Assembly: GCF_004341945.1 (NCBI RefSeq)
Contig: NZ_SMBP01000026.1
Coordinates: 1-35,238 of the forward strand
Direction: 5' to 3'
Origin: Longicatena caecimuris
GTDB lineage: Bacteria > Bacillota_I > Bacilli_A > Erysipelotrichales > Erysipelotrichaceae
DNA length: 35,238 nt
Below the pieces are notes generated by a model, which saw only the letters and a program-made list of their open reading frames with translations, was not told the origin of the DNA and did no database searches. The first letter of the stretch is position 1. The number at the start of each line of letters is the position of its first letter. This document shows, in pieces, positions 1,913-34,934 of this stretch. The translations under genes were made by a program, and so were the position numbers.

Positions 1913-4171
1913 TTATACACTCATCATTTCAGGATCATCCTGTACGAGTGTTTCAAATTGATCCACTGGAACCGGTTTAGAGAATACATATCCTTGAATA
2001 GCATCAGATTCCATACTTTTTAACAACTCTACCTGTGGTATCGTTTCTATCCCTTCGGCAATTGTTTCCATTCCTAATTTCTTAGCTAAACTGATAACTG
2101 TTTCAACAATGTCTTCTCCACGTTTATCATTTTCACTACTGAAGAAAACACGATCAAGTTTTAGAATATCCACAGGAATCTCTTTGAGTACATTTAAGGA
2201 TGAATAGCCACTGCCAAAATCATCCATAGAACATTTATAGCCATATTTATGAATTTCATCTATAATGGTTTTTAACATTTCCAAATTCTCAAATACAACT
2301 GTCTCTGTCAATTCTATTTCAATATACTGATCCGGCATTTCATATTTTTGTTGTATCTTTCGATATTCTTCTAAAAAGTTTGGATGATGAATATGATTTC
2401 TTGATAAATTTACTGATATCGGATGAGCGATTTTCCCTTCATCGATCCATTTACGTAAGATCTTACATACAACTTCAAAAACATACATATCAAGTTTAAT
2501 AATAAAATCATTTTTCTCAAAGAAAGGGATAAAGTCATCTGGTGGAATCAAGCCTTTTTCTGGACTGTCCCATCTTACTAAAGCCTCTGAGCCAATAATC
2601 TTACCCGTCTTTAAACTAACCTTAGGTTGTAGATATATGATAAATTCTTCTTCATCCAGAGCCTTTTCCATCATGTTTTCCATTTCTTTTTCTTTCAGCA
2701 ATATCTGATGTTCCAAGTCATTATAGAAAACAATATTACATAGATAATAGTTTGGAATATTTTTATTTGTCTTACGCGCTATATTGGCCTTATCACGTAC
2801 GACGATTAATTCCTGTGCATCATCTTTTACAATATAACAGCCACAAGATAATGGAATATAATAAGGAAGCTGACGCTCTTGATTATATTTATTAATCTCA
2901 TCCGCGATGCTGTGTAAACGTTCCTTAATCTTCCCTTCATCAATCGTATGCAAATAAATATTAAAGTTATCCGCATTGACGCGGGTAACAAATTCATCCT
3001 TAGCTAAATGTTTCTTGATACACACATATACATGTCGTAATACTTTATCGCCATTTTCACTGCCAAAGCTGGCATTAATTAATTTAAATTTACGCAAATC
3101 TAAGGATATAAAAGTATATGGTACAAAGTCTTTCGCTCGATCTAAGAGTTCTTTTTCGAACCGTACTTGCGTAAATCCTTGTGTGATAGGATCAATATAG
3201 GCGATATTTGTTATTTCTTTATTCTTTTTATTCGATGTGTACAGTAAAAACGCAATGAAGATAAAGAATACAACCGCTATGCCTAAAGCGAGAACGGCGA
3301 TTGCAAGACTGATGAAATTTTGAATATTCTGACTATACATCGTAGAAGGTACGATGGATAAAAGATACCAATCACAATTATCTAATGGAGTATAAGTGAG
3401 TGTTCGCATATTATCGCCATTTACCTTAAACGTAATGGTACCTTTTTTACGATTAGCAATATCTTGACAAAACTTTTGGAATGTCATTGAAGATGTAATT
3501 TCAGCTTTTTGCTGGAAGATGTTCAAAAAGTTATCACCATCAATTAATGCATTTTTATTTTTGGAATGTAAAATATAATCACCATTTTTCGCTATGATAT
3601 GTGAAAACCCGGTACCTGAAAATGATTCTGTATTCAGCAATAATTTCATGGTTTCAGGTGGTATCCATCCTACGATTGCGCTAATATTATTATCCTTTCC
3701 TTTATAAGGTACTGCATAAACAGCCCCTTTTTCATCAAAAATTTTCAACAGCTTATCGCTTACACTCGCTTGCCCATGCATAGCTTTTGCTACACAAGTT
3801 AGTTGAGATACATCTTTTAAAGGATGGTTCTTCACCTTTAGCATTCCCTTATGATCAACAGTGCCAATCCATTCAAAAGCTCCACCTTCATAAGCATCAT
3901 AAAGATACGCTTCATAAGCGGATTCATCCAGATATGCTAAAGAGTTCGATAGCGTTGCTAAGTAAGAAAAATTTGTTTCGACACGTTGCGTCACTTTGTA
4001 AGAAGTTTGTTGTGATATTTCATGGAGATAATTATTAACTTCTGTGTTTACGATATCTTTTCCTTTTTGCGTAAGTAAAAAAGATAAACTAATGATAAAA
4101 ACGATAATTACTACTGTCGAAAAGCCCATCATCTTTCTTTGCTTCTTATTCATCCATATATTTTTTAGCAT
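1913..4171 (-). CDS. Membrane-anchored c-di-GMP phosphodiesterase: extracellular sensor, degenerate GGDEF, EAL
   Basis: This 752-residue protein probably hydrolyses cyclic di-GMP in response to an outside signal. A first membrane helix at about 16-34 and a second at about 287-312 bracket an extracytoplasmic region of about 250 residues with the look of a Cache sensor. Residues about 318-480 are a GGDEF fold whose signature has decayed to NADNF (399-403), so it should not make c-di-GMP. Residues about 500-740 are an EAL domain with its key residues present: EALVRW (E529), N588, the ELTET glutamate (E620), DDFGSGYSSL (D650, D651), K671, E706 and QGYVFSKP. Catalysis is therefore expected. GAAGGA precedes the ATG. 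The gene stands alone between a promoter and a terminator. The degenerate GGDEF may serve as a GTP-sensing regulatory module, as known in some relatives. Confidence 0.95.
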   Translation of the reverse strand: MLKNIWMNKKQRKMMGFSTVVIIVFIISLSFLLTQKGKDIVNTEVNNYLHEISQQTSYKVTQRVETNFSYLATLSNSLAYLDESAYEAYLYDAYEGGAFEWIGTVDHKGMLKVKNHPLKDVSQLTCVAKAMHGQASVSDKLLKIFDEKGAVYAVPYKGKDNNISAIVGWIPPETMKLLLNTESFSGTGFSHIIAKNGDYILHSKNKNALIDGDNFLNIFQQKAEITSSMTFQKFCQDIANRKKGTITFKVNGDNMRTLTYTPLDNCDWYLLSIVPSTMYSQNIQNFISLAIAVLALGIAVVFFIFIAFLLYTSNKKNKEITNIAYIDPITQGFTQVRFEKELLDRAKDFVPYTFISLDLRKFKLINASFGSENGDKVLRHVYVCIKKHLAKDEFVTRVNADNFNIYLHTIDEGKIKERLHSIADEINKYNQERQLPYYIPLSCGCYIVKDDAQELIVVRDKANIARKTNKNIPNYYLCNIVFYNDLEHQILLKEKEMENMMEKALDEEEFIIYLQPKVSLKTGKIIGSEALVRWDSPEKGLIPPDDFIPFFEKNDFIIKLDMYVFEVVCKILRKWIDEGKIAHPISVNLSRNHIHHPNFLEEYRKIQQKYEMPDQYIEIELTETVVFENLEMLKTIIDEIHKYGYKCSMDDFGSGYSSLNVLKEIPVDILKLDRVFFSSENDKRGEDIVETVISLAKKLGMETIAEGIETIPQVELLKSMESDAIQGYVFSKPVPVDQFETLVQDDPEMMSV

Positions 4172-20578: not shown

Positions 20579-20890
20579 TTACAGCTTAATTTCGATGTCA
20601 ACACCACTTGGCAGTTCCAGACGGCTCAATGAGTCGATTGTTTCTGCTGTAGGTCCGACGATCTCAATTAAACGTTTGTGCGTTCTGATCTCGAATTGTT
20701 CGCGAGAATCTTTGTATTTGTGTACCGCACGCAGGACTGTTACAACCTGCTTTTCAGTTGGAAGAGGTACTGGTCCAACAATCTTTTTTGCACCGTGAGC
20801 TTGTGCTGCCTGAACAATCTTTTCTGCAGAAGCATCCAAGATTCTGTGTTCGTAGGCCTTTAAGCGAATTCTTACGCTATTTTTTGCCAT
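20579..20890 (-). CDS. rpsJ: 30S ribosomal protein S10
   Basis: S10 is a head protein and, as NusE, a partner of NusB in antitermination. The 103 residues include [60 protein letters not shown] and [16 protein letters not shown]. It is the first gene of the supercluster, behind a leader of about 120 nt; AAAGGAG lies eight bases before the ATG. Confidence 0.99.
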
Positions 20891-21008
20891 GAATATGTCT
20901 CCTTTCGTCTATATCGACTATAGACTCGCTCGATGCGAATTCCCTGACCTCGCCGTCCATGACAACGTTTCTCAGTGGGTCAGCAACCTCGCATGTCATT
21001 GCGGTCGT
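20891..21008 (-). promoter_or_regulatory. Structured 5' leader of the S10 operon, candidate autoregulatory RNA
   Basis: The RNA between the inferred transcription start near 21008 and rpsJ can fold. ATGCGA (20989-20994) pairs with TCGCAT (20933-20938) and encloses CTGACC (20978-20983) paired with GGTCAG (20944-20949). ATGACA (20994-20999) can pair with TGTCAT (20959-20964), which crosses both stems, so it forms a pseudoknot or an alternative state. A separate 7-bp hairpin, GTCTATA-GTCGA-TATAGAC (20907-20925), sits just before the ribosome site. There is no terminator in the leader, so control would be at translation or RNA stability. Ligand unknown; L4 or another S10-operon protein is the obvious candidate by analogy. 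Confidence 0.6.
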
Positions 21009-21014
21009 GAGAAT

Positions 21015-21043
21015 ATTCTAACACAGTTGAATAGTGAATACAA
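21015..21043 (-). promoter_or_regulatory. Main promoter of the S10-spc-alpha supercluster
   Basis: TTGTAT (21038-21043) and TAGAAT (21015-21020) are separated by 17 bases on the minus strand, about 125 bases upstream of rpsJ. AT-rich DNA upstream (21044-21080) could serve as an UP element. No promoter of similar quality was found within the cluster. Confidence 0.7.
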
Positions 21044-24638: not shown

Positions 24639-24670
24639 AAGCGAACCAATCTAGTATTTCTTTCTTAGAT

Positions 24671-24755
24671 ATGACTCCCTACGCTAGCATTAACTAGATC
24701 AGGTCATAAGGGACCATCCATAAGGATATCTCAGCCGTAAAGGCGCCCCTGTCAT
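24671..24755 (-). promoter_or_regulatory. TPP riboswitch (thi box)
   Basis: On the minus strand the conserved TPP aptamer words are present in order: GGGGCGCC, GGCTGAGAT, then CCCTTATGACCTGATC and TTAATGCTAGCGTAGGGA. ATGAC (24751-24755) and GTCAT (24671-24675) close the P1 stem. The aptamer binds thiamine pyrophosphate and shuts off the downstream transporter operon through the terminator at 24613-24638. This makes the operon a thiamine or precursor uptake operon with good certainty. Confidence 0.96.
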
Positions 24756-24764
24756 GACAGTATT

Positions 24765-24792: not shown

Positions 24793-24906
24793 TGCCATCG
24801 AAATATTTACCTAAATTTATAAGATGAGACAACTTTTTAATCTTTCCAACTTTTTAATCTTTCATTGTATGTTTTTAATATTATCTATATCACTTAGGGA
24901 TATCAT

Positions 24907-25032
24907 CGCTATTGTAAAGAGGTTCGTGTGTATTGGCAAAGATAATACCGCTATTGTAAAGCGATTCATGTGTATTGGCAAAGATTATATCGCTATTGTA
25001 AAGAAATCCATGTATATCCCCAATAAAAATTA
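24907..25032. repeat. 42-bp tandem repeat, three copies
   Basis: Three units start at 24907, 24949 and 24991, each opening CGCTATTGTAAAG and the first two sharing TGTGTATTGGCAAAGAT. Copies one and two differ at only about six positions; the third is more diverged in its second half. The period is a multiple of three, and a plus-strand frame through it would repeat a 14-residue block (AIVKRFxCIGKD), but no good ribosome site supports that frame and it runs antisense into the YbjQ gene. It lies in a gene-free stretch, about 24793-25138, between the thiamine promoter and that gene. Confidence 0.85.
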
Positions 25033-25044
25033 TCTACATTACCA

Positions 25045-25131
25045 AAGAAAAAAGCATTTGTTAGTAAGTGAGCGACTGCATCAAGAACTTTTTCCATCTG
25101 CATCTATCAGCTTTCCTAAAACAAATGCCTT
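25045..25131 (-). terminator. Possible terminator after the YbjQ-family gene
   Basis: On the minus strand GCATTTGTT (about 25120-25128) pairs with AACAAATGC (about 25054-25062), followed by TTTTTT. The loop is long (about 57 bases), so this is less certain than the others in the window. It lies just past the stop at 25139. Confidence 0.45.
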
Positions 25132-25138
25132 TTTGCTA

Positions 25139-25459
25139 CTACTTAAATTTTACTGCGGTGCCATAAGCAATAACTTCTGCAGCACCACCCATAATGGCAC
25201 TGGAAGCATAGCGAACATTCACTACAGCATCTGCGCCTAAGTTTTCAGCCTCTTCAACCATACGCTTTGTCGCAAGCGCACGTGCTTCATTCATCATCTC
25301 ATTGTATGCCTTCAATTCACCGCCAACCAAAGTTTTAAAACTCTGTGAGATGTCCTTGCCGATGTTTTTGGTTTGGATGGTACTTCCTTTTACCAATCCT
25401 AACATGTCGAGTTCTTTTCCTGTAATGTAATCAGTATTTACTAAGATCATCTTCTTCAT
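25139..25459 (-). CDS. YbjQ/DUF74 family protein
   Basis: A 106-residue protein of the YbjQ family (UPF0145, PF01906, labelled a putative heavy-metal-binding domain). It shows VNTDYITGKELDMLGLVKGSTIQ, KNIGKDISQSFKTLVGGELKAYNEMMNEAR and AEEAENLGADAVVNVRYASSAIMGGAAEVIAYGTAV in the usual order. These proteins form small ring oligomers of unknown function. Two starts are possible: 25459, only two bases after AAGGAG, or 25450, eleven bases after it; the second gives MILVNTDY. It overlaps the end of the preceding small membrane protein gene, so they are coupled. Confidence 0.92.
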   Translation of the reverse strand: MKKMILVNTDYITGKELDMLGLVKGSTIQTKNIGKDISQSFKTLVGGELKAYNEMMNEARALATKRMVEEAENLGADAVVNVRYASSAIMGGAAEVIAYGTAVKFK

Positions 25460-32921: not shown

Positions 32922-34907
32922 TTATTCTCCATATATACGAAAACCATGGCGCCCATTTCGTTTTCTTGCATACATTGCTTCATCTGCTTTTTGATATAGT
33001 GTCATAAAATTATCGCCATGTTCCGGCGCCAAACAAGCACCCAAACTGGCACTGATCGTTATGCCATCTACATTAAAACTAAGAGCATCACTTAATTGTT
33101 GAAGTTTTTTACGCAAAGCTTCTCGATTGCAAATATCCTTTAAAAATAAGATATATTCATCACCGCCAATACGTGCACACAAGTCATGTGAACGCATTAA
33201 GCCACGTAAGATTTGCGCTACATCACGTAATACTTCATCTCCCTGCATATGCCCCAATTTATCATTTAGCTGTTTGAAATTATCCAGATCCAACATGATC
33301 AAAGCATGCAGTTCCTCCTCCTGTTCCTGCAAGATATAATCTACTTTTTCTGCAATTGTCTTACGATTTAACAATCCTGTCAGTGAATCACTCTCTAACT
33401 CCAACTGCACTTCTAATTCTCGACACTTGATTTTATCAATATCTTGAATCAAAACGAATGCCTTAATATGCTTTGTATAAGGATCTTCCATTAATTGTAT
33501 TTCCGCTTTAGCCCAATAAATATGTTTTTTTACATCATAACGGCGATGCTCGCAAGTCACGACAAACTTTTTTTGATAGTAACAAGATAACAGATATTGG
33601 CGATCAAAGATGGTGAGGTATTTTTTGCGATCTTTTGCATAAACAAAGTTATTTGCCGCATATTGCGCGACAAAAGTAAAAGAACGACGTTTCGCAAATG
33701 GAATTTCAGGTATCACCGTGCTTTCCATCACCTCAAGCTGATCTTTGGTAATATCATATTCATAATAAGCAATCGCATTTGCCTTTTGATTTTCAAATAT
33801 CTGTATCCATCGTTGGTAAGACAACTTCTGATCATATTCTTCCGTATAATCTTCATATGAAATGATAGATGTAACCGGATGTTTTTCCTTATCATATGTT
33901 AAAAAGTAATGTGCTTTTATCCATGCATAATCGTCTCTGTCTTTTACACGCAATTTAAACATAGCACTTCCTTGTGGCACACCTTCCAGCATTGCATGAT
34001 AGAACCGCATATATTCCTCTAAGCTTTCCTTTGCGACTAAATTCATGTTTTGCACACATTCCGGGACATTTTTAACTTCTGTATAATCCCCCAATACACG
34101 ATCATCTGGGTCTCCCATAGACAATGTCTTTGTAGGAATATGATACCGCAACAATGTCTTATTCAACTGTTTCATCGCAATTCGATATTCCTGTTCACTG
34201 ATACGTAATCTATCCTCAATCAGTTTGCGATCCGTGATATCAAAAACAGCTCCAAAGATATCATTACCTTCATATGCATAACGACATAACACCCATATAA
34301 TAGAGCCATCTTTCTTAATACAACGATTTTCCTCCTCAAAATAATACGTATCAGAAACGGTAATTTTATGACTTCTTATATCTTTTAGAAGTTGCATAAA
34401 TTCATCAGGTAATACAATCTGTTGAATGTCTGAAATAGCATCCGTAGGATCATATACAAAAGTCTTATTAAAATAAAGATTATGATAAAGTAGTGTCATA
34501 CTCTCATCCAATGCCGCCTTAAATAAGCCACAAGGGATATTATTCGTTAATTTTTTATTTTGTAGACGATCATAGTTTTGTTTCATTTCAATGGCGAGGA
34601 TATCATCAATATTCGTCATCAGAAACATTTGCCCAGTAGTTGTGGTCGATATCTTTTGTAGACGATAATATGCATGATGATTTGTTGTTTTTACCAACTG
34701 CAAATCAAAAGCTGTTTGTTTTGTATGTGACCAATCACAGAACTGCGAATAATTCACCACAACGTTCTTCATCCTGTTGGTAGAGGGTAATCCTGTTTCA
34801 CGTTGCATGTAAGATGATAAATATAATATTTCATTTTCTCTATCTACAGCACCCGCATACTTCAGAATTTCCATTTGATGCAATATATCTGTTGAAATTG
34901 ACATCAT
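32922..34907 (-). CDS. PAS-domain diguanylate cyclase (GGDEF)
   Basis: A 661-residue cytoplasmic sensor enzyme expected to make cyclic di-GMP. No membrane helix is seen. Residues about 110-240 contain at least one PAS domain ending IFGAVFDITDRKLIEDRL, and another PAS-like block runs at about 250-370; a third may precede the cyclase. The GGDEF domain covers about 505-660: SLTGLLNRKT, LDLDNFKQLNDKLGHMQGDEVL, and the active site GGDEY at about 580-585 with RSHD five residues before it, an intact RxxD inhibitory site. F to Y at the last position is tolerated in the family. The start at 34907 follows GAAGGG by eight bases; an upstream GTG is less likely. No good terminator was found after it. Confidence 0.94.
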   Translation of the reverse strand: MMSISTDILHQMEILKYAGAVDRENEILYLSSYMQRETGLPSTNRMKNVVVNYSQFCDWSHTKQTAFDLQLVKTTNHHAYYRLQKISTTTTGQMFLMTNIDDILAIEMKQNYDRLQNKKLTNNIPCGLFKAALDESMTLLYHNLYFNKTFVYDPTDAISDIQQIVLPDEFMQLLKDIRSHKITVSDTYYFEEENRCIKKDGSIIWVLCRYAYEGNDIFGAVFDITDRKLIEDRLRISEQEYRIAMKQLNKTLLRYHIPTKTLSMGDPDDRVLGDYTEVKNVPECVQNMNLVAKESLEEYMRFYHAMLEGVPQGSAMFKLRVKDRDDYAWIKAHYFLTYDKEKHPVTSIISYEDYTEEYDQKLSYQRWIQIFENQKANAIAYYEYDITKDQLEVMESTVIPEIPFAKRRSFTFVAQYAANNFVYAKDRKKYLTIFDRQYLLSCYYQKKFVVTCEHRRYDVKKHIYWAKAEIQLMEDPYTKHIKAFVLIQDIDKIKCRELEVQLELESDSLTGLLNRKTIAEKVDYILQEQEEELHALIMLDLDNFKQLNDKLGHMQGDEVLRDVAQILRGLMRSHDLCARIGGDEYILFLKDICNREALRKKLQQLSDALSFNVDGITISASLGACLAPEHGDNFMTLYQKADEAMYARKRNGRHGFRIYGE

Positions 34908-34934
34908 TGGCACTTCCCTTCATATAACTTGTGC

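Follow-up and report, generated by a model that had tools for sequence, protein, structure and literature searches.

The pairings studied here lie on the minus strand of the window (the whole 35,238-nt stretch of DNA that was analysed), in the 5' leader of rpsJ, with which the S10 cluster begins; the genome is of Erysipelotrichaceae type. The best named matches of an independent scan are from Erysipelotrichaceae. The features of the leader are listed in Table 1. Read on the minus strand, the leader is flanked by rpsJ and by a TatD-family gene (22100-21372). Farther away a TPP riboswitch (24659-24760, minus strand; 77.5 bits for a cut-off of 54.3) precedes a set of genes coding for an ABC permease, an NMT1/THI5-like binding protein and an ATPase (24592-22093), which probably form a transporter of a thiamine precursor placed between the genes of EF-G and EF-Tu and the S10 operon. 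The EF-G and EF-Tu genes (29132-25802, minus strand) are about 5 kb from the operon, the interval being occupied by the transporter set and the TatD-family gene. TPP riboswitches near rpsJ are found also in 3 of the 20 loci of relatives. A 138-aa ORF of the plus strand (24824-25240) has no Pfam or NCBIfam match and may not be a gene, since it overlaps a YbjQ-like ORF (25459-25139, minus strand). The ribosomal cluster is flanked by genes of a dCache-GGDEF-EAL protein and of a PAS/GGDEF protein (1913-4171 and 32922-34913, both minus strand).

Table 1. Features of the rpsJ leader, in the order in which they are read on the minus strand (positions in the window)
Feature	Position	Strand	Basis
-10-like hexamer TAGAAT, ending 11 nt before the P1 core	21015..21020	-	predicted from sequence
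S10 r-leader domain P1-P2-P3a (span of model R1)	20924..21008	-	95.9 bits to R1, by construction
P1 5' strand CGC, pairs with 20929-20927	21001..21003	-	98.4% of cells paired; outer pair CG in 48, UA in 14
Crossing-stem 5' strand, partner 20964-20959	20994..20999	-	complement present, pairing unsupported
P2 5' strand, pairs with 20939-20933	20988..20994	-	96.4% paired in 64 rows
P3a 5' strand, pairs with 20949-20944	20978..20983	-	first five pairs 92.5% paired
Apical loop CGUUGUCA	20960..20967	-	7 of 8 positions identical in 64/64 rows, themselves picked on this word; fixed 15-nt spacing from GAGGUUGC
P3a 3' strand	20944..20949	-	pairs with 20978-20983
P2 3' strand	20933..20939	-	pairs with 20988-20994
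P1 3' strand	20927..20929	-	pairs with 21001-21003
P4, 7-bp hairpin ending 3 nt before the Shine-Dalgarno site	20907..20925	-	stem of at least 4 bp here in 64/64
Shine-Dalgarno AGGAG	20899..20903	-	sequence
rpsJ (S10), first gene downstream of the leader	20579..20890	-	NCBIfam PRK00596.1, 145.8 bits, cut-off 85

Three six-base complements had been claimed for this leader in an earlier note, and all are exactly present on the minus strand, in Watson-Crick form: AUGACA (20999-20994) with 20964-20959, AUGCGA (20994-20989) with 20938-20933, and CUGACC (20983-20978) with 20949-20944. A search for all 6-mer complements between 21008 and 20891 returns these stems and no others. The last two nest and the first crosses both. 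Base 20994 is needed by the crossing stem as well as by the outer nested stem, so that the full six pairs of each cannot coexist. Taken as a single sequence, the leader is only weakly above chance: when the 85-nt domain is shuffled 2000 times with its dinucleotides kept, 190 shuffles have three or more six-base complements and 88 have one or more crossing pairs, and the fold energy has a z-score of -2.06, with 6 of 200 shuffles equally good. It is the comparative data that decide.

Of 272 genomes of the family of the window, 222 gave a match in a search for the S10 protein, and 150 stretches upstream of rpsJ were collected from this family and from other Bacillota. An anchor regular expression matched 74 of them. 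The 64 distinct leaders among these were aligned with MAFFT (alignment A1) and served to build R1, a covariance model of the window's group. The 76 remaining stretches were scanned with R1, which matches 74; the misses are a stretch taken from the wrong side of rpsJ (L133) and the region upstream of Clostridioides difficile rpsJ (L080, 1-490), the latter giving no match to the Rfam model RF03136 either. A wider set (alignment A2), composed of the 76 loci minus these two, plus the window's own locus, provided 75 matches, 74 of them distinct, fitted to R1.

The nested fold, composed of stems P1, P2 and P3a, is paired in 95.5% of the 960 cells of the 64-row alignment, and 70 cells are changed on both sides versus 21.4 after shuffling, a number reached by none of 500 shuffles. 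Pairing falls to 25-44% when the partners are slid by 1-3 columns in the same rows, and RNAalifold, unaided, yields the same helices. The wider set is paired to 89.7%, with 127 both-side changes versus 33.7 in shuffled alignments (0/500). The nested stems read in the single sequence correspond to P2, which has one extra G-U pair, and to P3a. Both covary among the 64 distinct relatives. P3a exchanges UA (32 rows) for CG (26) and AU (38) for GC (16) in the 64-row alignment, while P2 is 99.0% paired in the wider set, where one of its pairs is UA in 37 rows and CG in 35. The closing stem P1 was absent from the earlier note; its C-G pair is replaced by U-A in 14 of the 64 leaders, and it is weaker beyond the window's group (73.4% paired in the wider set). 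Within the domain, P1 and P2 are separated by an internal loop that contains a conserved GA, and P2 and P3a by an internal loop GGUU/GGKAA; P3a bears an extended apical loop, and hairpin P4 and then the Shine-Dalgarno site follow.

Transcription probably starts near 21008, as suggested by the position of the -10-like hexamer just before P1. The distance from the end of the best such hexamer to P1 is 7-19 nt (mode 11) in the 64 leaders, a count that carries no chance estimate. A start downstream of the pairing segments had been envisaged as the fact that would speak against a structured leader; as far as the sequence tells, with a -10-like hexamer preceding P1 in 64/64 leaders, the start lies on their upstream side. 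At the other end of the leader, the 7-bp hairpin that had been reported ahead of the ribosome site is present (20925-20919/20913-20907, before AGGAG) and is a real conserved element, found as a P4 stem of at least 4 bp in each of the 64 leaders. Its arms vary together, the mean pairing score being 14.1, against 8.7 after an exchange of halves among the leaders.

Crossing pairs had led to the proposal of a pseudoknot or of a two-state switch, in which 20999-20994 would pair with 20964-20959 in competition with P2. The six-base complements of this stem exist, none of the 64 leaders departs from its central G-C and A-U, and at its outer end AUG faces a complementary CAU in 59, 67 and 67 (one figure for each of the three pairs) of the 68 scorable rows of the wider set. 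However, the near-constancy of AUG/CAU is untestable by covariation, and these pairs are mostly absent from the window's own group, where the outer pairs of the stem form in just 26 and 17 of the 64 leaders. Over these 64 rows 72.1% of the cells of the crossing stem are paired versus 71.3% after shuffling, and its covariation is 0.098 versus 0.096; the loop strand is nearly invariant and the partner strand drifts. In the middle of the stem the base opposite an A is other than U, almost always C, giving an A-C clash in 66 of the 68 scorable rows of the wider set. No pair of the crossing stem is listed by an unbiased scan for covarying column pairs, and base 20994 is used by P2. The pseudoknot was rejected on these grounds: it is highly improbable, the S10 leader does not require it, and the comparative data close the idea.

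Two other readings concern what lies between the promoter and rpsJ. Control could be exerted by attenuation of transcription at an intrinsic terminator, which is one of the two arms by which L4 acts in E. coli (PMC10931766). A run of five U is found in none of the 64 leaders (TTTTT in 0/64) and the minus strand has no terminator-like site between 20500 and 21500, which bears out the absence of a terminator noticed earlier and makes attenuation at such a site quite unlikely. The AUG that follows the apical loop in 44 of the 64 leaders could be the start of a leader peptide, but it is missing in the other 20, its frames relative to rpsJ cover all three, and they meet a stop after 2-20 codons in 29 leaders and stay open to rpsJ in 15. 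The absence of the AUG, the spread of frames and the early stops led to rejection of the leader peptide, whose probability appears negligible.

R1 matches are found in 220 of 266 genomes of the family and in 103 of 195 genomes of the phylum, one per genome. The distance from the motif to rpsJ, downstream of it and on the same strand, is 28-53 nt in 90/90 matches with a listed S10 gene, the 13 further phylum matches having no S10 place listed. The non-matching phylum genomes among those listed (n=20) are small, 0.7-1.3 Mb. An Rfam scan of the window at gathering thresholds reports the TPP riboswitch only. A relaxed threshold brings in a match of 26.1 bits to RF03136, the S10-Clostridia ribosomal protein leader, over positions 21007-20905 (E 0.0011 for 211 bases); it stays under the curated cut-off of this family, 35.1 bits. 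Close relatives have an RF03136 match at the same place in 7 of 20 cases, with E up to 1 and none above cut-off, and of 20 loci that are mostly from other Bacillota 18 have one, above cut-off in 11. The phylum sample gives RF03136 matches in 59 of 195 genomes. The two models fall at the same place in 45 of the 45 genomes that have both; 14 of the 59 RF03136 matches are without an R1 match, and 12 of the 16 genomes with RF03136 above cut-off also have R1 matches. Among 14 control genomes RF03136 is found in two, B. subtilis and L. lactis.

The coincidence of R1 and RF03136 indicates that they describe one family, of which the window has a divergent member. The leader shares with RF03136 its place before rpsJ, the P2-P3 core stems, the words GAGGUUGC and GAGCG, and a hairpin that separates the core from the Shine-Dalgarno site. 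The leader is set apart by a 22-nt insertion relative to the consensus and by its apical CGUUGUCAUG loop, and its covarying P1 is left unpaired in the RF03136 structure line. Divergence together with the apical insertion would fit the score below cut-off, and what we propose is homology to the RF03136 family, not a formal Rfam match. The assignment to an S10-operon leader made in the earlier note holds, given the motif 28-53 nt upstream of rpsJ in 90/90 and its coincidence with RF03136 in 45/45. What the window has is a divergent form of a known leader, the Firmicutes S10 r-leader, and not a new element, as Rfam already has the family; the finding is real but ordinary in its class, its less-described part being a Bacilli-type apical loop. 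The family bears the name of the Clostridia, but the Erysipelotrichaceae and a large part of the Bacilli come under it with a single architecture.

RF03136 and the Firmicutes S10 r-leader are treated by Eckert and Weinberg 2020 (PMC7247131), who cite Yao et al. 2007 for this r-leader. The passages on the motif describe the Firmicutes S10 r-leader as previously established and mention numerous Clostridia examples found by the authors (PMC7247131). The same passages present a different candidate leader, the Archaeoglobi L4 r-leader, for an operon with rplC and rplD (PMC7247131); this family is unreported in the Rfam scan of the window.

We hold with high confidence that the window carries the 5' untranslated leader of the S10 operon, a Firmicutes S10 r-leader (RF03136) presumably acting by translational feedback of a ribosomal protein and without need of a pseudoknot. 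The leader most likely binds a candidate ligand, a ribosomal protein encoded in the operon, to repress translation. Transcription would begin just before P1; the operon-encoded protein, when in excess over rRNA, would bind the P1-P3 domain, and the bound protein, together with P4 beside the Shine-Dalgarno site, would block initiation on rpsJ and lower expression of the whole operon. L4 may be the first candidate ligand, with about even chances against the other proteins of the operon, a choice made by analogy with E. coli only. The E. coli S10 leader is described as controlled by L4 in the relevant passages of PMC10931766. It is the leader of the same operon, and feedback by a ribosomal protein is transposed from it by analogy, but it has no RF03136 match, and its L4 mechanism has an attenuator, none being seen in the window's leader. 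The S10 r-leader literature, in the portions consulted, holds no direct test of a ribosomal protein controlling the Firmicutes S10 operon.

In the window the apical extension consists of GAGGUUGC, then 15 nt, then CGUUGUCA. Most Bacilli rows have a UUUGCCAUGG-type loop as counterpart of the apical loop and a CCCGGCCGCUUUGCCAUGG-type sequence at the apical extension. The full apical module is found in 65 of the 74 rows of the wider set; it is shortened or altered in L143, L150 and L081 and missing in four Clostridia rows (L060, L066, L068 and L078), and the Rfam RF03136 consensus shows it as an insertion. A three-pair apical stem UGA/UCA is paired to 88.0% but was rejected, its covariation being matched by 500/500 shuffles. 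The minimum free energy fold has a 7-bp apical helix CGUUGUC/GACGGCG, with no conservation of its downstream strand. The conserved segments were turned into weight matrices and scanned against E. coli 16S and 23S rRNA and four 23S loci of relatives; this sequence-level test, which structural mimicry would escape, gave nothing convincing as rRNA mimicry. The rRNAs of relatives and of E. coli were used because no 23S gene was found in the window's own genome, an assembly of 45 contigs.

The invariant CGUUGUCAUG loop and the conserved GA of the internal loop could meet in a short tertiary contact or act jointly as a protein site, with no six-base stem. This reading, compatible with the S10 r-leader explanation, is somewhat doubtful. 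Both of them hardly vary, keep a fixed spacing and exceed the stems in conservation, but the A1 rows were picked by a regular expression on the CGUUGUCA and GAGGUUGC words, so that their invariance is partly due to selection, and invariance leaves no covariation as test. Moreover, the position of CGUUGUCAUG is taken by UUUGCCAUGG in most Bacilli rows and is missing in the four Clostridia rows. We tentatively suggest, as a possibility, that the S10 r-leader of Bacilli and Erysipelotrichia carries a separately recognised apical module, with a fixed spacing and a CGUUGUCAUG or UUUGCCAUGG loop that hardly varies, and lacking in Clostridia, which would be a second site for protein binding or tertiary contact. 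If so, the module would change which ribosomal protein controls the operon, or how strongly; as a protein site, it would offer a defined test of the ribosomal protein controlling the largest ribosomal operon of Firmicutes.
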